Virus record (IMG/VR): IMGVR_UViG_3300030333_005240
Coordinates: 1-20,789 of that record
DNA from: a virus
Direction: 5' to 3' (one strand)
DNA length: 20,789 nt
Shown: positions 3,885 through 18,346 of the stretch, one piece after another
Position numbering within the stretch: position 1 is the stretch's first letter
How the letters are laid out: each line of letters begins with the position of its first letter
Program-made: the position numbers and the translations under genes
The notes under the pieces: model-generated
Databases searched by the model: none
Seen by the model: the letters and a program-made list of their open reading frames with translations, nothing else
Told to the model about the DNA's origin: nothing

Positions 3885-5138
3885 TTAGTAGATTCTATAC
3901 CCAGTTTGGCCTAAAGTTTCGGGTTTGGCTAAGTTAAATTGCTGGAGGCATAAATAACCGAAAGCGTCGAAAGCGTGATCAACACCAAGATTTTTATTTG
4001 GTAGTCCTGTGTTCGGGGCATAGGTCAGAGTTCGTAAAGATTTGATGAGTTCTTTGCATCGGGGGTGAATATAAGTTCTTCTTATACCTGATGCGTCGTA
4101 TAAGGCGGTGTTGACTGCGGTTATTTTATCTCGGATTTTCCACGGGGCTTTTGGGGAGGAGACATTGAAGCCGCTTCTTCGGAGGATGCTGTGGTCTGTT
4201 GCCCCGACTCCTGCTGTTTTTCTGGCTCCTCCAGTTGGGTCAGGGCAAGCAACTATTCTACGGTCCACGCCATATCTGCGGATTACTTCTTCTGCAAAGT
4301 CCCAGGTTGTTGCCCCTCCAGTCATAATTATTTCGTCGAAAACGTAAAGTTTGTCTTCGTCTTTTACGGCACAGATGCCTGACATGGGGTCTACGTTGAA
4401 ATCGACTCCTAGAAGGATGGGCATTATGGATATGTCTTTGGCTTTTGTGGAGATATTTTCATCGGAGAATGAGACTGCGACGAGACCCGTGAGATTCTCG
4501 AAGCTGGCCTCAAATTCTTGGCGAAATGTGCGTTGATCTAGTTGTGCACGGGCGGCTTGGACTTCTTCTGCTGGTACGTTTCCCCCTTGTATTGTAGTAA
4601 AACTCCAGCGATTCCACTCGCCTGTTGCGTCTTCTGGGACGTAACACCATAGGTCGTAGAACCAGCTTGCCGTTCCATCGGGTGTGGAAATGAATAAGGC
4701 CCAGCCTTGTTTGTCGGCTAGGGCAGGTCGGATGACCTCGAACCAGACCTCGGAATCCATGAAAGCTGCTTCGTCTAGGACTACACCTGCGAGGCTTCGA
4801 CCTCGGAGGGCCATTGCGTTTTCAGTTCCCTTTAGTTCAATTGTGGAATCGTTTATGAGTTCTATTTTTAGGTCGGTTTCGTTCTTGGATTTGACCCATT
4901 CTTTTGGGACAAGTTTTTTCATTTCTTTCCAGGCGATGTCTTTTGCCATGCGGTAGGTCGGGGCACAGTAAAAGTATGTTTCTCCTGGTCTGGATATTGC
5001 TGCTTTTAGGAGTTCGATGCAGGAGAGGTATGATTTTCCGAAGCGGCGGCCAGCGACTAAGACTCTAAATCGCTTTTCGTTATTGAAGACCTCGCCTTGC
5101 GCCCAACGTAAAGATAGTGGTTGTGTTTTTACTGCCAT
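3885..5138 (-). CDS. terL: Terminase large subunit (TerL)
   Basis: A 417-aa DNA packaging motor. The N-terminal ATPase shows Walker A AGRRFGKS (residues 29-36), Walker B GVVLDEAAF with D122-E123, and coupling motif LFISTP shortly after. The C-terminal RNase H-like nuclease shows the three acidic positions: GVDFNVDP, ACPDPTGG and DHAFDAFGYL. Together these cut the concatemer and pump DNA through the portal. The start ATG 5138 gives full ATPase coverage; TGTAGTACATG sits directly at the start with no Shine-Dalgarno. Unusually, the TerS-like gene is on the opposite strand, divergent by 82 bp. Third codon positions favour C (e.g. CGC, TAC, GTC, CTC), in contrast to the T-rich portal gene, hinting at separate ancestry or a strand effect. 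A TACTACAAT motif at 4599-4591 lies inside this gene. Confidence 0.95.
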   Translation of the reverse strand: MAVKTQPLSLRWAQGEVFNNEKRFRVLVAGRRFGKSYLSCIELLKAAISRPGETYFYCAPTYRMAKDIAWKEMKKLVPKEWVKSKNETDLKIELINDSTIELKGTENAMALRGRSLAGVVLDEAAFMDSEVWFEVIRPALADKQGWALFISTPDGTASWFYDLWCYVPEDATGEWNRWSFTTIQGGNVPAEEVQAARAQLDQRTFRQEFEASFENLTGLVAVSFSDENISTKAKDISIMPILLGVDFNVDPMSGICAVKDEDKLYVFDEIIMTGGATTWDFAEEVIRRYGVDRRIVACPDPTGGARKTAGVGATDHSILRRSGFNVSSPKAPWKIRDKITAVNTALYDASGIRRTYIHPRCKELIKSLRTLTYAPNTGLPNKNLGVDHAFDAFGYLCLQQFNLAKPETLGQTGYRIY

Positions 5139-5694: not shown

Positions 5695-5879
5695 GGAGAT
5701 TGTTGGATTGGGTGGGTAGTTTCTTTGTTTATCGTTCTCCTGAGCCAGGGCAGGGATACTACAATTTGTTACTACAATTAACTTCTAAGAAGCTGCAAGT
5801 GCTTGCGGGAACTAGGACTCACTACTCGAAAAAGAAATTAGTTGCGATGATTATTGACAATGACAAGTCATTAGTGTAG
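5691..5879 (+). CDS. SAP/Rho-N-like small protein (62 aa)
   Basis: Begins with GTG 5691, overlapping the TGA of the TerS gene (GTGA), so probably co-translated. The N-terminal half (RLLDWVGSFFVYRSPEPGQG) is unclassified. The C-terminal half, LTSKKLQVLAGTRTHYSKKK followed by LVAMII, has the helix-extended loop-helix spacing of SAP or Rho N-terminal domains, small DNA/RNA-binding modules: Leu-x3-Leu, then a basic loop, then (S/K)KKxLVxxI. A nucleic-acid-binding partner of TerS or a packaging accessory would fit the position. Two direct repeats TACTACAATT fall inside the gene and encode YYN and LLLQL in different frames. Confidence 0.55.
   Translation: MRRLLDWVGSFFVYRSPEPGQGYYNLLLQLTSKKLQVLAGTRTHYSKKKLVAMIIDNDKSLV
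5757..5779 (+). repeat. Tandem direct repeat TACTACAATT
   Basis: Two perfect 10-bp copies at 5757-5766 and 5770-5779, 3 bp apart (13-bp period, a little over one helical turn). They fall in different reading frames of the 62-aa gene, so the protein does not explain them. Each copy contains the TACAAT core found at the promoters of this window. Confidence 0.8.
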
Positions 5880-6348: not shown

Positions 6349-6417
6349 TATTGTAGTACAAAATGAACAGATTTCACCTAGCGAAACCTTAAGAAATTAT
6401 TAATTTATTGTAGTACA
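6349..6417 (-). promoter_or_regulatory. Two tandem promoters for the 93-aa gene
   Basis: The 12-mer TATTGTAGTACA occurs at 6349-6360 and again at 6406-6417. Read on the minus strand each gives TGTACTACAATA with a TACAAT -10. The proximal one has GTGAAA as -35 (6377-6372, 16-bp spacing, 4/6 match) and is 50 bp from the ATG. The distal one has no clear -35. Confidence 0.5.
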
Positions 6418-9668: not shown

Positions 9669-9689
9669 AATTAGTTTACCATAAAAGAG

Positions 9690-9980: not shown

Positions 9981-10004
9981 AAAAAGGGGCCGATGAATGG
10001 CCCC
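9981..10004 (-). terminator. Intrinsic terminator after SSB
   Basis: Minus strand GGGGCC-attcatc-GGCCCC is a perfect 6-bp GC stem with a 7-nt loop followed by TTTTT. It lies 7 bp past the SSB stop and 6 bp before the start of the 94-aa gene, so it may act as an attenuator that makes SSB more abundant than the genes behind it. Confidence 0.88.
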
Positions 10005-10011
10005 TATATAT

Positions 10012-10620
10012 CTAGTCCTCTTTATCTGAAAACGGGTCGGTTCCGTCTATTAAACGGGTGATGTCGAACCCTGCTTTTTGAACTTCGATCCAGGCAGCTT
10101 CTTTATCCTTTATGGCACTTTTCTTTTTAGGGGCAGTGCGTAAAGAGTAGGTAGTGTTTTTCTTAACTCCTTCTCTTGATAGGACAAAATCCCATTCAAG
10201 TAGATCATCTTTGTAATCATCCATTTGACTGATTTGATCTAACTGAGTGATGAGTGTCTTTTGCCCGAATTGCAATATTTGAACTGTTTCAGCGTCGTAA
10301 TTATATACGGGAATAGCTAAAGCTAGTTTTGCAGGATCAGGTGCAGTACCTTCAAAGTTGAGTCTGCGAGTGGCTTCACCAGCCATTGCTTCTTCAATAT
10401 CTTCAGGTGTTGGATCATCTGTAAACCTGTAAGGCTTACTTTTATTAGGATCTTCTACGAGTGCTCCCCAAACTTCATAGAAGTCGAGTGCATTTTCCTC
10501 AAGTAAAGCGAATCTAACGGATGATCCATCCTCTAATTTGGATGGGTTAAGGTAGCGGTCAACTCCAGATGAAGAAGACTTTTTACCTTCTTCTTGTGCT
10601 CTTTTTGATAAAAGTGGCAT
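10012..10620 (-). CDS. ssb: Single-stranded DNA-binding protein
   Basis: A 202-aa protein with the layout of phage gp32/OB-fold SSBs. A basic Ser-rich N-terminus (LSKRAQEEGKKSSSSGVDRY) is followed by a beta core (SSVRFALLEENALDFYEVWG; ALAIPVYNYDAETVQILQFG) with many aromatics for base stacking. The region TQLDQISQMDDYKDDLLEWDF then LSREGVKKNTTYSLR matches a pattern I recall from such SSBs. The tail DPFSDKED is acidic, as in SSBs that recruit partners through the C-terminus. It coats ssDNA at the fork and would work with the helicase-primase and polymerase. A near-consensus promoter drives it and a terminator follows at once, suggesting strong single-gene expression. No zinc site was seen. Confidence 0.75.
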   Translation of the reverse strand: MPLLSKRAQEEGKKSSSSGVDRYLNPSKLEDGSSVRFALLEENALDFYEVWGALVEDPNKSKPYRFTDDPTPEDIEEAMAGEATRRLNFEGTAPDPAKLALAIPVYNYDAETVQILQFGQKTLITQLDQISQMDDYKDDLLEWDFVLSREGVKKNTTYSLRTAPKKKSAIKDKEAAWIEVQKAGFDITRLIDGTDPFSDKED

Positions 10621-10655
10621 GTTTGCTAAGTGGGCATCGCCCTAAGTGCCCTTCT

Positions 10656-10684
10656 ATTGTAGTAGTGTGACAGATACCTGTCAA
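10656..10684 (-). promoter_or_regulatory. Strong sigma70 promoter for SSB
   Basis: Minus strand TTGACA (10684-10679), a 17-bp spacer and TACAAT (10661-10656): a perfect -35, ideal spacing and a 5/6 -10. The ATG is 35 bp downstream. The -35 overlaps the right arm of the dyad at 10668-10683. Confidence 0.88.
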
Positions 10685-10695
10685 TCAGCTACAAT
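10667..10695 (+). promoter_or_regulatory. Sigma70 promoter for the replication operon
   Basis: Plus strand GTGACA (10667-10672), a 17-bp spacer and TACAAT (10690-10695). The -35 includes the left arm of the same dyad. The transcript would start near 10702 at the base of the CCCC/GGGG hairpin and run to the helicase-primase ATG at 10765. Confidence 0.75.
10668..10683. promoter_or_regulatory. Operator dyad shared by two divergent promoters
   Basis: TGACAG-ATAC-CTGTCA is a perfect 6-bp inverted repeat with a 4-bp centre. Its arms contain the TGACA part of both -35 elements, so one dimeric protein here would block, or sit between, both polymerases. Confidence 0.65.
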
Positions 10696-10696
10696 G

Positions 10697-10731
10697 AAAA
10701 AACCCCAAGGACTGAAGGGGCCGATGGGGTT
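10697..10731. terminator. CCCC/GGGG hairpin in the operon leader
   Basis: CCCC (10703-10706) can pair with GGGG at 10717-10720 or, as AACCCC (10701-10706), with GGGGTT (10726-10731). On the minus strand the hairpin is followed by TTTTTT (10702-10697), giving a terminator that would stop antisense reads before the SSB promoter. On the plus strand it would form the extreme 5' end of the operon mRNA, with two alternative stems. Which role counts is open. Confidence 0.5.
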
Positions 10732-10764
10732 AAAAGTTAAGTATTTACAAAGCAATTGTATCAC

Positions 10765-13239
10765 ATGAGTAAGCATCAACAACTATTAGAATTCGTCTCT
10801 AATTGTCCTTCTGATTGGTCCACGTGCCCGATATATGCAAAGGGCGTGACTATGAAAGATGGAAAGGTAGCGAAGGGTAAGTCACCCTATGGAGAAGCTA
10901 TAAAGCCAGGTGCACATTGGTCCCCTTCAAGATCTGCCTTATTAATTGAAAGAGAGCCAGAAAATTTCAAAGCTTTTGGAGTATTCACAGGTGTTGCGAG
11001 TGGTGGTTTAACCATCTTCGATGTTGATTACAACCTCGGTGCAATTAAGAAAAAATGGGGCAAGGATTTAGAGAACGCTCCAACGATTACTTCTAATAAA
11101 AAGAACGCTGCAAAATATCTTTTTATTGTTCCTGAAGAAGACCGCTTAATTGTTAAAGGGATTTCACATGTAGCTGCTGATAAAGAAGGCTTTGAAGTTT
11201 TGTGGGGAAGGCAAGGTGTTTTATTTGGTGCTTATGGTGGACATGAACCAACTAAGACTCCTGAAGGGATATATAAATTTGAGGGAGATTTAAACAATAT
11301 TCCTGTTGCTCCAACTTGGTTGTTGGAGAGGATGAAAGAGCAGTACAGAAAAGAGAATGAGGATAGGCCAAAGAGAAGATTGAAAGATACTCGTTGGTCT
11401 AAACGAACCAAGGAAGAGAAGATCATTATTGCTGAGAATTGCTTGAGTGTGATTCCTCATAAGGGTGCTTACTCGGAAGAGTATTGGTGGCAGATCGGAG
11501 CGATGATTAATTCGGAGCTTCCTGGGGAAGAGGGTTTAAAAGTTTGGGAGAATTGGTCGAAGCAAGATCCTGAATATTCTTACTGCTGGTCTGTTGGTAA
11601 TCCTTGTGAACAGAAATGGAATAGGAGATGGAGGAGTGGTCCTGGTCTTGGCTTTGGAAGTCTTATTCAGTTGGCCGATGAGGTCGATCCAGAGAGAAAG
11701 AGATTTCAGAGAGACGATATATCAGCTTTAGTTGATGAGATAGAAGCTGTTGCTCAGAAATGGAAGCCTGAATATATCGGTGGTGAAGAATTAATTGCTA
11801 GGGGATTAGATCTTGAAGAAGAGATAGAAGATCCTGCTCTACTTGATCAGGCTAAAACTGTGCTCGCTATGGAGGCTGGACGGGCCAGAGAGGGAGCTGT
11901 AGCAATTGACAGGTTGATTGATGCACATTTGTCTTACAAGCGTAATGCAGGTGGAAAACCTAAAGATGTGGGAGATCTGGATGACACAGCGTTTGATTAT
12001 TTAATTCCTGGTTTGTTACCGAAGCCTTGGTTGCTTTTGATTCATGCAGACGGTGGTACTGGTAAATCTGCTATGTGTCAAACACTTTGTAAGCACATCA
12101 GTCAGGGAAGAGATTTCAATGTGCATGGAGGCATGGTGGATATATCGAAGGGAAAATGTCTTTGGTTGAATGGAGATCAAAGTGAAAGGATTACAAGAAG
12201 GCAGTTCAATTTGATTGGTGTTGATAGAGGTGTTGATGTAATTGGTGAATGGGATATGGCTTGGTATAGAAAGTTTTGCAAGATTCAAGGGGGCGGTCCA
12301 GGGAAGAAAGGAAGATATGACTTGATTGTTATTGACAGTCTTGATGGCTGTAATGACTCCAATCCTTATGAAGAGAACAGGAGAGAGTATGCACTTCCTT
12401 TAAAGAGATTGGCTAGAAGAAATGGTCAAGACTTTGGTGCTTGTTCAATTATTGTGATTCACCACAACAACAGGAATGGTGGATTTAGAGGAACATCTGC
12501 AATTAAGGCTGCTGTAGATGAAACATGGAATATGCAGAAAGTGAGTAAAAAAGAGTTAGCTGAAATGGCAGCTCCCTTCAATAGCAGACTCGTAACTGTA
12601 GAGAAGTCAAGAGATGACAGGGAAGGACAAAGGATGTTGTTTAGTTTGCTTCCTGATTACACATATATCATTGGTCCCGTTCCAGAAGGGAAGGATACTC
12701 AGAAGGACAACACTCCTAATCAGCACATGTTGGACATTCTTCAGTTGATGAGGGAGGAGAGAGTTCCTTGGTCTGCGGATTTATTAACTGATCACGAAAA
12801 AGTTGGGGGTATGCACAGAAAACGTGCCATCAGATATAGCCTCTCGAAGTTGCTTGCTCAGAAGTTAATTGTTAAGTGTGACGCACCAGAAAATATATCT
12901 TTTAAAGGTCGTCCACCTGCTTTTTATATGGCTCTTGGTACGAACCTAAAAACCTTCAGAAAAAGGGCAGTTTCCTTAACGCCCGATAATAAGTGTGTAT
13001 TAACTCAAACCTCTTCTACTGGAACGGATCTTATTGACAAAACGGAATTGTCAAAAGTCCATTTTGTCAAAAGTCCTGGCTCGGATACTGTGGAGGCAAA
13101 TACTTTTGACAAAAATACTTTTGACAAAACACCGATTGTCAATAAGAACGCTTCCGCTGCAAGGGAAAAGAGTTTTGACGCTCCCACACACAGACATAGG
13201 GAAAATGCACAAAAGTTCTGGAACGATCCAAAACCATGA
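10765..13239 (+). CDS. Bifunctional primase-polymerase / replicative helicase
   Basis: An 824-aa protein from ATG 10765; a TTG three codons upstream is possible. Order: an archaeo-eukaryotic primase (prim-pol) domain (about 1-200) with catalytic D86-V-D88 in GLTIFDVDYN; a PriCT-like helical domain (about 220-315; YWWQIGAMINSELPGEEGLKVW, WRSGPGLGFGSLIQLAD); a RecA-like helicase/ATPase (about 410-630) with Walker A GGTGKS (430-435), Walker B LIVIDS (D524) and a later IVIHHNNRNGGFRGTSA; a winged-helix-like part (about 650-715, MHRKRAIRYSLSKLLAQKLI); and a low-complexity tail. It would unwind the fork and lay primers for the polymerase in the same operon. The tail (about 755-805) has FDKNTFDK-type repeats created by the DNA repeats at 13034-13143. 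It overlaps the next gene by ATGA. Confidence 0.92.
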   Translation: MSKHQQLLEFVSNCPSDWSTCPIYAKGVTMKDGKVAKGKSPYGEAIKPGAHWSPSRSALLIEREPENFKAFGVFTGVASGGLTIFDVDYNLGAIKKKWGKDLENAPTITSNKKNAAKYLFIVPEEDRLIVKGISHVAADKEGFEVLWGRQGVLFGAYGGHEPTKTPEGIYKFEGDLNNIPVAPTWLLERMKEQYRKENEDRPKRRLKDTRWSKRTKEEKIIIAENCLSVIPHKGAYSEEYWWQIGAMINSELPGEEGLKVWENWSKQDPEYSYCWSVGNPCEQKWNRRWRSGPGLGFGSLIQLADEVDPERKRFQRDDISALVDEIEAVAQKWKPEYIGGEELIARGLDLEEEIEDPALLDQAKTVLAMEAGRAREGAVAIDRLIDAHLSYKRNAGGKPKDVGDLDDTAFDYLIPGLLPKPWLLLIHADGGTGKSAMCQTLCKHISQGRDFNVHGGMVDISKGKCLWLNGDQSERITRRQFNLIGVDRGVDVIGEWDMAWYRKFCKIQGGGPGKKGRYDLIVIDSLDGCNDSNPYEENRREYALPLKRLARRNGQDFGACSIIVIHHNNRNGGFRGTSAIKAAVDETWNMQKVSKKELAEMAAPFNSRLVTVEKSRDDREGQRMLFSLLPDYTYIIGPVPEGKDTQKDNTPNQHMLDILQLMREERVPWSADLLTDHEKVGGMHRKRAIRYSLSKLLAQKLIVKCDAPENISFKGRPPAFYMALGTNLKTFRKRAVSLTPDNKCVLTQTSSTGTDLIDKTELSKVHFVKSPGSDTVEANTFDKNTFDKTPIVNKNASAAREKSFDAPTHRHRENAQKFWNDPKP
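13034..13143 (+). repeat. TTTTGWCAAAA dyad repeat cluster
   Basis: Six related elements in 110 bp: TTGACAAAA (13034-13042), TTGTCAAAAG (13048-13057), TTTTGTCAAAAG (13062-13073), CTTTTGACAAAA (13103-13114 and 13118-13129) and ATTGTCAAT (13135-13143). Each is a near-palindrome around TTGWCAA, and they occur in both orientations. They fall in the tail codons of the helicase-primase gene, where the protein is low complexity. Confidence 0.8.
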
Positions 13240-14888: not shown

Positions 14889-15114
14889 ACAGCTAGAAGT
14901 TCAAAGAGCACTATCAGATGCCTTTGATAAATTAAATACGAAAAAGGAAGCTATTTACAAACAGCACAACCTTAATCGTACTGAACATAGTGCTGAAGAA
15001 TCTCAAAAATCCTGGCAGTACTATGAAGGATATAGAGACGCAACAATGGCTCTCTTAGAACATTCAATCTCCCTCGGAAAACCCACTCAACTGGAGCTTA
15101 ACTTAAATGTCTAA
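14875..15114 (+). CDS. Helical hypothetical protein (79 aa)
   Basis: Overlaps the previous gene by 14 bp and the polymerase gene by 8 bp. It is almost all helix (MDLIEQLEVQRALSDAFDKL, YYEGYRDATMALLEHSISLG), with mixed charge. Unrecognised. The C-terminal QLELNLNV is a short hydrophobic tail that could dock a partner such as the polymerase encoded next, but this is only a suggestion from position. Confidence 0.7.
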   Translation: MDLIEQLEVQRALSDAFDKLNTKKEAIYKQHNLNRTEHSAEESQKSWQYYEGYRDATMALLEHSISLGKPTQLELNLNV

Positions 15115-16939
15115 ATACAAAGTGTACTACGGTATTGAGAACCTACATCTTCTTGATACCTGCATAACTATAGCGTTTGATACGGAAACGCTCCAGCTAC
15201 AACCAGAAAAGGGGAAGCTCAGGCTTCTTCAGATTGGTTGCAAAGAACGGAACACAATCATAGTGATTGATTGTTTTGAATTAGAGGAAAAGGACTGGAA
15301 GTATCTGGAACGATTTTTTGATACTCCTCGTTTTTGGATTGCCCATAATGCTGTGTTCGATATTGCTTGGCTTCAAGAGCACAACATTCACTTAAAAGGA
15401 ACGCTTCGATGCACGATGCTTGCGAATCGTTTACTTACAAATGGGATACCAGCTTTAAAACATGGATTAGATAGTGTTGTTAAAAGACACTTAGGTATTG
15501 AGTTGTCTAAGGAACAGCAGAAATCCGACTGGAGCGTACCTGAGCTAAGTGAAGAACAACTTGAGTATGCAGCCAAAGATGTTGAAGTTCTTTTGGAATT
15601 AGACAGAAAGCTGGAAGACAAGATCAACTATGGACAGCTTGATATTGCAGAAGAGTTAGAGGTTAGGACTATTCCTGCTCTTGCTCAGATGTGGAGAACA
15701 GGTCTTCCCTGGAACAAAAATGCATTAGAGCAGTGTCGCTCTGATTATGAATATGATGTGGAGCAACTTGGAAGAGAGTTTTTAATCAAATTAGATGAAG
15801 CTTTGCCTGAAGATCAGAAGCTTCCTAGAGATGGTGACGATGACATGGCTCCATTTAATTTACGAGCCAAGGATGAGGGTTCTATTCGGTTAGGGACTAA
15901 AAAATATAAGGGGTTTAATTTGAACAGTCCGAAGCAGTTGCTTGAAAAATTTACGGCTGTGTTAGGTGAGGAGCCTAGAGATTCCAATGGGAAAAAGAGT
16001 GCTTCAAGGCAAGCATTGAGAGGGTATGCAGCAGACCACGAAGTAATTCAAATTTACTTGCAATGGAAAAGGACAGAGAAGAGAAGGCAAATGGTGACTT
16101 CTATTCAGGAAAAGATGGATAGTGATGGATTTGTTCGAGCTTCATATATGCAGCTTGGGGCAGATACAGGTCGGATGAGTTGTATTAAGCCGAATAATCA
16201 GCAGATTCCTAGAGATGACTCTTTTAGGCAATGTGTTCAGGCTCCTGACGGTTGGGTGCTAGTAGATGCTGACTATGGGCAGATGGAATTAAGACTCGCT
16301 GCCGCATTAGCGGAAGACGAGAACATGATTTCTGTGTTTAAAGAAGGTGGTGATCTGCATGAGTACACAGCGCAAGCAATGGGTTGTGACAGGCAGGTAG
16401 CAAAATCCGCAAACTTTGGTTTGTTATATGGGGCAGGTGCAGATGGCTTGCGAAATTACGCAGGTGCTAGTGGCCTAACTATGACAAGAGATGAAGCTGC
16501 CAAGATACGCAATGACTGGCTTGGCACGTACCAGGGAGTTAGGGATTGGCAGAGGGAAAATGGGGAAGAAGCTGATCGTACACAGAAAAATGACAAGCCT
16601 TACATAAGGATTCCCGTGTCAAAAATGAGACGATTTCTTCCAGGTGATTTGAACAAGATTACGGTACGATGCAATACCCCAATACAGGGGGCAGGTGCAG
16701 CAATATTGAAGAAGGCTTTAGGGGAACTTTGGCCCTTGGTTAAAGAAGCAGGGGAAGACACCGTTCGTATTGCAGCAGCAATACATGACGAAATTCTCTT
16801 GTTGGTTAAGGAAGAGGAAGCGGAGAAATGGGCAGCAATATTAAAGGAGAAAATGGAAGAGGCAGAGGCTATCTGGCTCGGAGAAATACCTGCTTTAGCA
16901 GAGACATCTATTGGCAAAACATGGAGGGAGGTCCATTGA
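15107..16939 (+). CDS. polA: Family A DNA polymerase with 3'-5' exonuclease
   Basis: A 610-aa phage replicative polymerase. The proofreading domain is intact: Exo I D25-T-E27, Exo II HNAVFD (D85), Exo III Y154-x3-D158. The polymerase domain has motif A DADYGQMELR (D387/D389), motif B R429-x3-K433-x3-F437-GLLYG and motif C H560-D561-E562. Compared with the usual DYSQIELR, motif A has Gly for Ser. The residue matching E. coli Pol I position 762 is Phe (F437). The N-terminal 5'-nuclease domain of bacterial Pol I is absent, as in T7-type phage enzymes. With SSB, helicase-primase and the exonuclease it forms a self-contained replisome. It overlaps the genes on both sides. Confidence 0.96.
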   Translation: MSKYKVYYGIENLHLLDTCITIAFDTETLQLQPEKGKLRLLQIGCKERNTIIVIDCFELEEKDWKYLERFFDTPRFWIAHNAVFDIAWLQEHNIHLKGTLRCTMLANRLLTNGIPALKHGLDSVVKRHLGIELSKEQQKSDWSVPELSEEQLEYAAKDVEVLLELDRKLEDKINYGQLDIAEELEVRTIPALAQMWRTGLPWNKNALEQCRSDYEYDVEQLGREFLIKLDEALPEDQKLPRDGDDDMAPFNLRAKDEGSIRLGTKKYKGFNLNSPKQLLEKFTAVLGEEPRDSNGKKSASRQALRGYAADHEVIQIYLQWKRTEKRRQMVTSIQEKMDSDGFVRASYMQLGADTGRMSCIKPNNQQIPRDDSFRQCVQAPDGWVLVDADYGQMELRLAAALAEDENMISVFKEGGDLHEYTAQAMGCDRQVAKSANFGLLYGAGADGLRNYAGASGLTMTRDEAAKIRNDWLGTYQGVRDWQRENGEEADRTQKNDKPYIRIPVSKMRRFLPGDLNKITVRCNTPIQGAGAAILKKALGELWPLVKEAGEDTVRIAAAIHDEILLLVKEEEAEKWAAILKEKMEEAEAIWLGEIPALAETSIGKTWREVH

Positions 16940-17559: not shown

Positions 17560-17749
17560 GGTCAATGACCAAGTAAATAAAAAGGTAAACTCAGGCGTTT
17601 ATCTATATGTAGGAGCTACGGCTGGAACGATCATAGAGGTCAAAACCAAGTACAACGTCAGAGGTCGAATCTGTTATTACTACGGTGTTAAATGGCCTGA
17701 TGGAAGACGATCAGAACATGCACAGCACATATTAGTTCCAGCTCCATAA
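17528..17749 (+). CDS. Small beta-barrel (SH3-like) protein
   Basis: 73 aa, overlapping the RHH gene by 32 bp. After a loose N-terminus it reads as alternating beta strands with Gly/Asn turns: FKVNDQVNKK, VYLYVGATAGTIIEVKTKY, RICYYYGVKWPDGR, HAQHILVP. This matches small SH3-like phage proteins in which a GxV/I...YxVxWxDG pattern recurs. Role unknown. Its TAA overlaps the next ATG. Confidence 0.65.
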   Translation: MTAASTTPKFKVNDQVNKKVNSGVYLYVGATAGTIIEVKTKYNVRGRICYYYGVKWPDGRRSEHAQHILVPAP

Positions 17750-17970
17750 TGGTTAATAAAATTCAAGCAGACTGTCCTAAGTGCAGTGTTACTAGGACTA
17801 GAGTTGTATGCACTAAACGTGCCCCTGATGGAGTCACCATTAGACGTAGAAGGTGTGTTATCTGCGATCACCGTTGGTACACGATCCAGTATCCTGAAAT
17901 TGCTGTTTCAAATACTGAAATAAAGTGGGTAGGAACTGGAAGTAACGCTAGATTTACACCGTCTGCATAG
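17749..17970 (+). CDS. NrdR-like zinc ribbon protein, ribbon only
   Basis: 73 aa. CPKC (9-12) and CVIC (36-39) flank TRTRVVCTKRAPDG and IRRRR, the order of the NrdR N-terminal zinc ribbon (CPxC...dg..IRRRReC..C..RfTT..). NrdR represses ribonucleotide reductase genes, but its ATP-cone domain is absent here: only about 30 residues follow the ribbon. It could act as a DNA-binding decoy or a small transcription factor. It is the last gene of the operon and ends 2 bp before the terminator. Confidence 0.7.
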   Translation: MVNKIQADCPKCSVTRTRVVCTKRAPDGVTIRRRRCVICDHRWYTIQYPEIAVSNTEIKWVGTGSNARFTPSA

Positions 17971-18049: not shown

Positions 18050-18346
18050 CTATTGTAGCTTTAATAATTTTTTAAGCAAATTGGGGCGTTTGTGCCCCTT
18101 TTCTTTTTTGCTTTTAACTATTTGTGAATGTAAATTAGCCATCCTGACTAAACACTCGGATATAAAAATAGTCTGTTGGTGATTGCGTCTTGCTATATCT
18201 TCTGCATACCTTCTTATACCTTCAATATCATCGGTAGCTCTGATGGTTCGTATTTCTTTTTCTAGTTGTAGCTCTTCTTCAAGGCTAGGAGGTTTGGCTA
18301 ACTCAAGAACAAAAGAAAGGTCAAGAGGAATTTCTGCTTCGCTCAT
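18050..18346 (-). CDS. Hypothetical charged helical protein (98 aa)
   Basis: Last gene of the leftward cluster. It is helical and highly charged: LSFVLELAKPPSLEEELQLE (about 10-29), IRRYAEDIARRNHQQ, and a Lys-rich end (KSKKEKGHKRPNLLKKLLKL). Unrecognised. It overlaps the previous small gene by 26 bp. Its last 20 codons contain the hairpin at 18083-18109, a plus-strand terminator, so codons and RNA structure share the same bases. No Shine-Dalgarno is obvious at the ATG 18346. Confidence 0.65.
   Translation of the reverse strand: MSEAEIPLDLSFVLELAKPPSLEEELQLEKEIRTIRATDDIEGIRRYAEDIARRNHQQTIFISECLVRMANLHSQIVKSKKEKGHKRPNLLKKLLKLQ
18083..18109 (+). terminator. Second rightward terminator
   Basis: GGGGC-gtttgt-GCCCC (18083-18098), 5-bp GC stem and 6-nt loop, followed by TTTTCTTTTTT. 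It backs up the terminator at 17973-18020 against rightward read-through and lies within the end of the leftward 98-aa gene. Confidence 0.75.

Follow-up and report, generated by a model that had tools for sequence, protein, structure and literature searches.

The window, the whole 20.8-kb virus record analysed here, carries leftward capsid, portal and terminase genes at its left. To the right of these structural genes lie a nuclease gene and a single-stranded DNA-binding protein (SSB) gene, both read leftward, followed by a rightward operon that runs from a helicase-primase to a DNA polymerase. The SSB start codon (10620, leftward) and the helicase-primase start codon (10765, rightward) are separated by 144 bp. 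The primase start, corrected from a TTG at 10756, is the ATG at 10765 (MSKHQQLL...), which is kept in relatives. The features from the nuclease to the polymerase are:

9673-9681, minus strand: promoter-like -10 TGGTAAACT, close before the start codon of the nuclease gene (9668)
9985-10005, minus strand: strong leftward intrinsic terminator right after SSB (AGGGGCCATTCATCGGCCCCT TTTTA)
10012-10620, minus strand: SSB gene, the presumed target of PL (PHROG single strand DNA binding protein, weak match, E 4e-5)
10625-10649, minus strand: predicted 5'-end hairpin of the SSB mRNA, GC-ACTTA-GGGC-GAT-GCCC-ACTTA-GC, with compensatory stem changes in relatives
10656-10661, minus strand: PL -10 TACAAT, with TAC in front (TACTACAAT); relatives keep T-A at positions 1-2 and T at position 6
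10667-10672, plus strand: PR -35 GTGACA; NTGACA or TNGACA, always 5/6, in 55/57 regions
10668-10683, no strand: 16-bp dyad TGACAG-ATAC-CTGTCA, here two -35 hexamers in mirror positions
10679-10684, minus strand: PL -35 TTGACA; TTGACA in 39/57 regions and TAGACA in 10/57
10690-10695, plus strand: PR -10 TACAAT; TATAAT, TACAAT or TAGAAT in 56/57 regions
10765-13239, plus strand: helicase-primase gene (AAA_25, PriCT_2), with which the PR operon opens
15107-16939, plus strand: family A DNA polymerase gene, further along this series of tightly packed rightward genes

A scan of viral contigs with the promoter pattern alone returned six near-identical contigs and four diverged relatives, the SSB of the latter being about 40% identical. 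Scans with SSB, nuclease and terminase alignments yielded 64 distinct upstream regions, and 56 of them, in 17 clusters, make up the alignment used for column statistics. All relatives are metagenome contigs, none of them cultured, and the clusters are not strictly independent lineages. Among phage isolates, the region has no DNA match to a close isolate, and the protein matches are weak only.

The phage group is abundant, uncultured and marine. Nuclease matches among phage isolates are solely to phages of marine picocyanobacteria and to one record named 'Marine'. The portal is best matched by AG-345-A17, a virus from a single cell, at 89% across 39% of the protein, followed by cyanophage S-2L and Prochlorococcus phages. 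Judged from these matches, the host is likely, although unproven, to be a picocyanobacterium. Integrase, psbA-type and hli-type genes, looked for with respect to lifestyle and host, were not found in 15 related contigs, and a search for prophage relatives in genomes gave only four MAG contigs of mixed taxonomy, which are likely stray phage contigs.

Divergent promoters of SSB and the helicase-primase

Promoters were scored against the E. coli sigma70 consensus, an assumed standard that may not be that of the host. On this scale PL, with TTGACA at 10684-10679, a 17-bp spacer and TACAAT at 10661-10656, scores 11/12 and is the best promoter-like site of the window. PR, with GTGACA at 10667-10672, a 17-bp spacer and TACAAT at 10690-10695, scores 10/12, as one of three window sites at that level. 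The predicted start sites, 10649 (leftward) and 10702 (rightward), are 53 bp apart. The original prediction had placed both promoters at these positions with these spacers, and the placement is borne out: when the whole window was dinucleotide-shuffled 1500 times, only 2 shuffles produced an interleaved divergent pair whose scores add up to 21/24.

The same geometry is found in relatives, distant ones with an SSB about 40% identical included. The distance from -10 to -10 is exactly 34 bp in 57/64 regions, and in 55 of those 57 the two -35 elements match the consensus at 6+5 or 5+5 positions. A perfect TTGACA, present in PL of 39 regions, never occurs in PR. In the alignment, the core columns of the -10 and -35 elements reach 2 bits or nearly so, as compared to 0.2-1.2 bits, and well below 1 on average, in the six columns between the -35s. 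Thus two near-consensus sigma70-type promoters lie on opposite strands, overlap, and are conserved, including both -10s, in related phages; the predicted division between SSB on one side and helicase-primase and polymerase on the other agrees with this arrangement. An indel anywhere between the -10s alters the spacer length of at least one promoter, which accounts for the fixed 34-bp spacing. Since each -35 sits inside the spacer of the opposite promoter, the spacing locks itself without a bound protein.

The extended PL -10, TACTACAAT, is repeated elsewhere. There are six copies in the window (0.17 expected), at 5757-5765 and 5770-5778 on the plus strand and at 4591-4599, 6350-6358, 6407-6415 and 10656-10664 on the minus strand, the last being that of PL, and seven copies in 17.5 kb of the related contig L122. 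The motif has the look of a promoter -10 in use throughout the phage.

With regard to the transcription units, a terminator-like site downstream of SSB is present in 47/63 relatives, as compared to 3.7% of shuffles, and the nuclease promoter-like element recurs in several relatives as TTGACT-16-TATATT-AATT-ATG. The terminator after SSB and the nuclease's own promoter-like element imply that PL probably serves SSB alone. The rightward genes are tightly packed from primase to 17970, and the next strong rightward terminator is at 18083-18098, so that PR plausibly transcribes primase through polymerase. Of the four genes proposed to be controlled jointly, SSB on one side and primase and polymerase on the other keep their places as targets of the two promoters; joint control of the nuclease is not supported. 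The nuclease element ends about five bases before the start codon, likewise in relatives such as L063, L072 and L055, which suggests a leaderless nuclease mRNA. In several relatives a terminator hairpin lies immediately before this element and is fused to it.

At its 5' end the predicted SSB mRNA has a hairpin whose plan is constant, namely GC, a short loop, a stem of 4-5 bp, a loop, the returning stem, AC.. and GC. Stem variants among relatives are compensatory (GGGC/GCCC, GAGC/GCTC, GGCT/AGCC, GGTT/AACC and GACT/AGTC). No Shine-Dalgarno sequence is evident between the hairpin and the SSB start codon, and Rfam covariance models gave no match at E<=1 in 10300-11000, the leader hairpin included. 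The SSB of T4, gene 32, is autoregulated, and by analogy autoregulation of SSB through this leader would be one option.

A leftward terminator and a putative leftward promoter before the primase gene

Three further features lie between PR and the primase start codon:

10697-10731, minus strand: intrinsic terminator read leftward, AACCCCA...TGGGGTT + T6, situated between primase and the PR -10, with covariation and a one-sided T-tail
10697-10748, minus strand: predicted antisense RNA of about 52 nt, deduced from P3 and the terminator
10755-10763, minus strand: P3, a leftward extended -10 TGATACAAT, one base from the primase ATG

The terminator hairpin spans 10701-10731, with T6 after it on the minus strand; on the PR transcript the same sequence would form a 5'-end hairpin. 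Among 17 representatives, 26 cells are double-changed with pairing kept, versus 5.7 in shuffles, and the covariation score is 0.55 versus 0.26 in shuffles that preserve column make-up but not relatedness. Pairing drops when the partner strand is slid. In 64/64 regions the T-rich tail is on the minus side only, where T fills a mean of 5.4 of 8 positions as compared to 1.9 on the plus side, which identifies the terminator as leftward. It would serve as the intrinsic terminator that ends the short RNA of an oop/pO-like unit. Its T-run (10702-10697) covers the PR start region, and the A-run that gives this tail also falls between the PR -10 and the PR start site.

The P3 motif, TGNTANANT or a close form, is found at the primase start in 64/64 upstream regions and overlaps the ATG in two of them. 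The forms are TGTTACAAT (27 regions), TGATACAAT (11), TGCTACTAT (8), TGCTACAAT (5), TGCTAGAAT (4), TGATAGACT (3) and others including TGCTATAAT; in L036 and L037, missed by the script, P3 reads TGTTAGAGT and overlaps the ATG. The N of TGN is a freely variable column, and the middle of the hexamer varies among forms of a -10 (CAA, CTA, GAA, TAA, GAC). In 61 of 62 regions measured P3 lies 53-61 bp from the PR -10, and in the remaining one 78 bp; relative to the start codon it moves by at least one base, with the motif left whole. P3 has no recognisable -35 and sits between a Shine-Dalgarno-like AGG and the ATG. By sequence, a putative leftward -10 thus lies at the start codon (ATG or GTG) of a replication gene in every region, as expected for an oop/pO-like unit. 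Start-codon-anchored conservation was tried as a control for P3 and abandoned as not clean: the nuclease start region is conserved too, and there the conserved element looks like a promoter in its own right. A repeated TGGANCGWT motif was also discarded; it is scattered through coding DNA on both strands.

Taken together, P3 and the leftward terminator predict an RNA of about 52 nt, from about 10748 to 10697, consisting of a 17-nt 5' tail, the terminator hairpin and a U-run (U6). This RNA would be complementary to the leader of the primase mRNA, up to the edge of the ribosome-binding region.

The strongest alternative, to which we give roughly one chance in three, is that no antisense RNA is made. 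The hairpin at 10701-10731 would then protect or structure the 5' end of the primase mRNA, and TGNTANANT would reflect a constraint on translation initiation. Both predicted mRNAs do start with a hairpin at or near +1, the location of the motif between AGG and the start codon would suit such a constraint, and A-rich DNA downstream of a -10 aids melting. However, the invariably one-stranded T-tail does not fit this explanation, nor does the lack of such an A-run on the PL side, and the free N in TGN-TANANT, the shifting start codon and the varied -10 middles suit a promoter better than a ribosome site.

A less likely, although not negligible, possibility is that P3 acts by transcription interference only, the leftward polymerase colliding with PR or terminating on top of it and the RNA being inert. 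The T-run that ends the terminator does fall on the PR start site, and activity of lambda pO reduces transcription from pR (PMC3985674). Interference alone, however, leaves unexplained the near-constant length of about 52 nt and the free 17-nt tail, although interference and antisense action are not separable by sequence. On balance we lean, by a modest degree, toward P3 directing an antisense RNA.

The dyad formed by the -35 elements

TTGACA in one reading direction is TGTCAA in the other. Of the 12 arm bases in TGACAG-ATAC-CTGTCA, 10 (5 of 6 arm pairs, TGACA/TGTCA) are the -35 hexamers themselves, and the mirror dyad arises because two near-consensus promoters with equal 17-bp spacers are placed as mirror images. 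The original prediction took this dyad for an operator, on which a dimer of phage or host origin would switch both promoters together, and with them SSB, nuclease, primase and polymerase. The arms are exact and the dyad is identical in close relatives, and comparable designs are known, such as pLS20 Pc/Pr with RcoLS20 (PMC4207663). Against this, perfect 6-4-6 dyads occur at chance frequency (7 in the window, 7.7 expected from shuffles), and there is no second copy of the dyad in the window.

Comparison with relatives also speaks against an operator. The sole arm pair outside the hexamers, 10673/10678, is not kept, being complementary in 40% of cluster weight as compared to 29% expected from column frequencies; for the outer pair, 10667/10684, the figure is 17%. 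Among the 56 aligned relatives, no hexamer pair co-varies above the column-frequency expectation, and substitutions are one-sided, leaving the arms uncompensated. All six arm pairs are kept in only 9/57 regions and four pairs in 28/57. Eight deep relatives have no 6-4-6 dyad, and the same eight keep the PR -10, the P3 -10, the terminator and a PL-like -10. Relatives thus retain the promoters and lose the dyad, the very outcome that the original prediction had named as counting against it. In six of these eight the -10s are 27 bp apart, not 34. In addition, a terminator separates SSB from the nuclease, which has its own promoter-like element, and no HTH-type regulator matched Pfam among the 20 distinct window proteins searched, a set that covers the window's part of the genome and a portion of its ORFs.

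With a dyad at chance frequency, without covariation and lost in the deepest relatives, control by a dimer bound there is improbable. In the E. coli bio operator and the Tn10 tet region, divergent promoters are placed under a single repressor dyad; here, by contrast, the dyad is neither conserved nor compensated beyond the promoter hexamers, which speaks against a repressor-operated pair of the bio/tet type, and no repressor is known. We conclude with considerable confidence that the 40-bp site consists of interleaved divergent promoters without an operator.

Among L030, L031, L032, L034, L036, L037, L114 and L121, several deep relatives carry, in the region upstream of SSB, a TTGAC-like element that precedes the PR -10 by just some 7 bp, together with a small dyad of another sequence there (CTTGACAAG in L036, GGTTGCCAACC in L121). 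A further factor may be required by their promoters. The sole possible DNA-binding regulator among the window proteins searched is a 73-aa protein (17749-17970, plus strand) in which only an NrdR-like zinc ribbon was recognised (Pfam E 9e-7).

Proposed control and comparison with known systems

Conservation in relatives extends to all three -10s, the two -35s, the terminator and the hairpin of the SSB leader. From these elements we infer that the promoters fire and that the antisense RNA exists and inhibits. In the model we propose, PL would read SSB and PR the operon from helicase-primase to polymerase. Because each -35 lies inside the opposite promoter's spacer, only one RNA polymerase could occupy the site at a time, and control would come from competition between polymerases, the simplest switch, rather than from a repressor on the dyad. 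Leftward transcription from P3, ended by the terminator just before PR, would produce the RNA of about 52 nt against the primase mRNA leader, and this RNA and its transcription would act as a brake on the replication operon, as lambda pO/oop does on pR and RNAII on repB. The model as a whole, interleaved promoters without an operator, polymerase competition and a P3 antisense brake, is the account we favour, with moderate confidence. Five E. coli bidirectional promoters show no competition at basal activity and compete only with one side strongly active (PMC12825309), so that competition here would require PL and PR to be strong enough.

Bacterial bidirectional promoters (PMC12825309, PMC10268837) resemble the present site in that pseudo-symmetric DNA serves both directions and the polymerases are mutually exclusive. 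They differ in sharing or overlapping the -10, whereas here it is the -35s that interleave. Bidirectional promoters as described by Warman et al. have divergent starts 7-25 bp apart and a shared -10 (PMC10268837); with predicted starts 53 bp apart and -10s 34 bp apart, the pair PL/PR does not belong to that class. The pLS20 Pc/Pr region (PMC4207663) similarly has two sigmaA promoters facing apart on about 40 bp and controlling opposed units. In pLS20, however, the boxes of both promoters coincide and the regulator RcoLS20 acts through operators and looping, while neither a regulator nor an operator is supported here.

For the P3 unit, the closest designs come from lambda and pMV158. Lambda pO is leftward, with a -10 mutation two bases from the first codon of the replication gene O; its product is the short oop RNA, and it reduces transcription from pR (PMC3985674). 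The likeness of pO/oop/tO to the P3 unit lies in a leftward -10 by the start of a replication gene and a short terminated RNA, convergent with the gene's promoter. In lambda, however, oop is antisense to cII and pR is far upstream, whereas the predicted RNA would cover the leader of the replication gene itself and PR starts at its far end. RNAII of pMV158 is 48 nt long and comprises a 17-nt tail and a stem of 8 bp; it is complementary to the leader immediately before the start of repB and blocks repB translation (PMC4485353). The predicted RNA, about 52 nt with U6, would share the 17-nt 5' tail, the single terminator hairpin and the U-rich end. pMV158 differs in that RNAII acts on the initiator gene of a rolling-circle plasmid together with the CopG repressor, while the present target would be a phage helicase-primase, with no repressor seen. 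The arrangement may thus be described as having the place of pO and the shape of RNAII, a likeness of design and not of membership.

The operator claim falls, and what remains is a deeply conserved control region with a third promoter, a one-sided terminator and a structured SSB leader. Antisense RNAs that control replication are classic in plasmids and in lambda. We tentatively suggest, at slightly less than even chance, that this marine phage group controls its replication by an antisense RNA of about 52 nt to the helicase-primase leader, joined to interleaved SSB and primase promoters. Equally tentatively, the promoter of the RNA would touch the start codon of the gene and the RNA would end where transcription from the gene's own promoter starts, making it a phage counterpart of plasmid copy-number RNAs. 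If the arrangement is conserved across marine phages, which may infect picocyanobacteria, the design would be shown to be general. The predicted 52-nt RNA offers a specific target for metatranscriptome data.

Five contigs in which no relative of the window's SSB, nuclease or primase was detected also fit the interleaved-promoter pattern (L008:9090-9129, L010:3161-3200, L016:6839-6878, L021:7044-7083 and L022:7654-7693). Their hexamers are near-consensus, TTGACA...TGTCAA with TATAAT/TACAAT-like -10s, and the interleaved geometry seems to recur in other phages.
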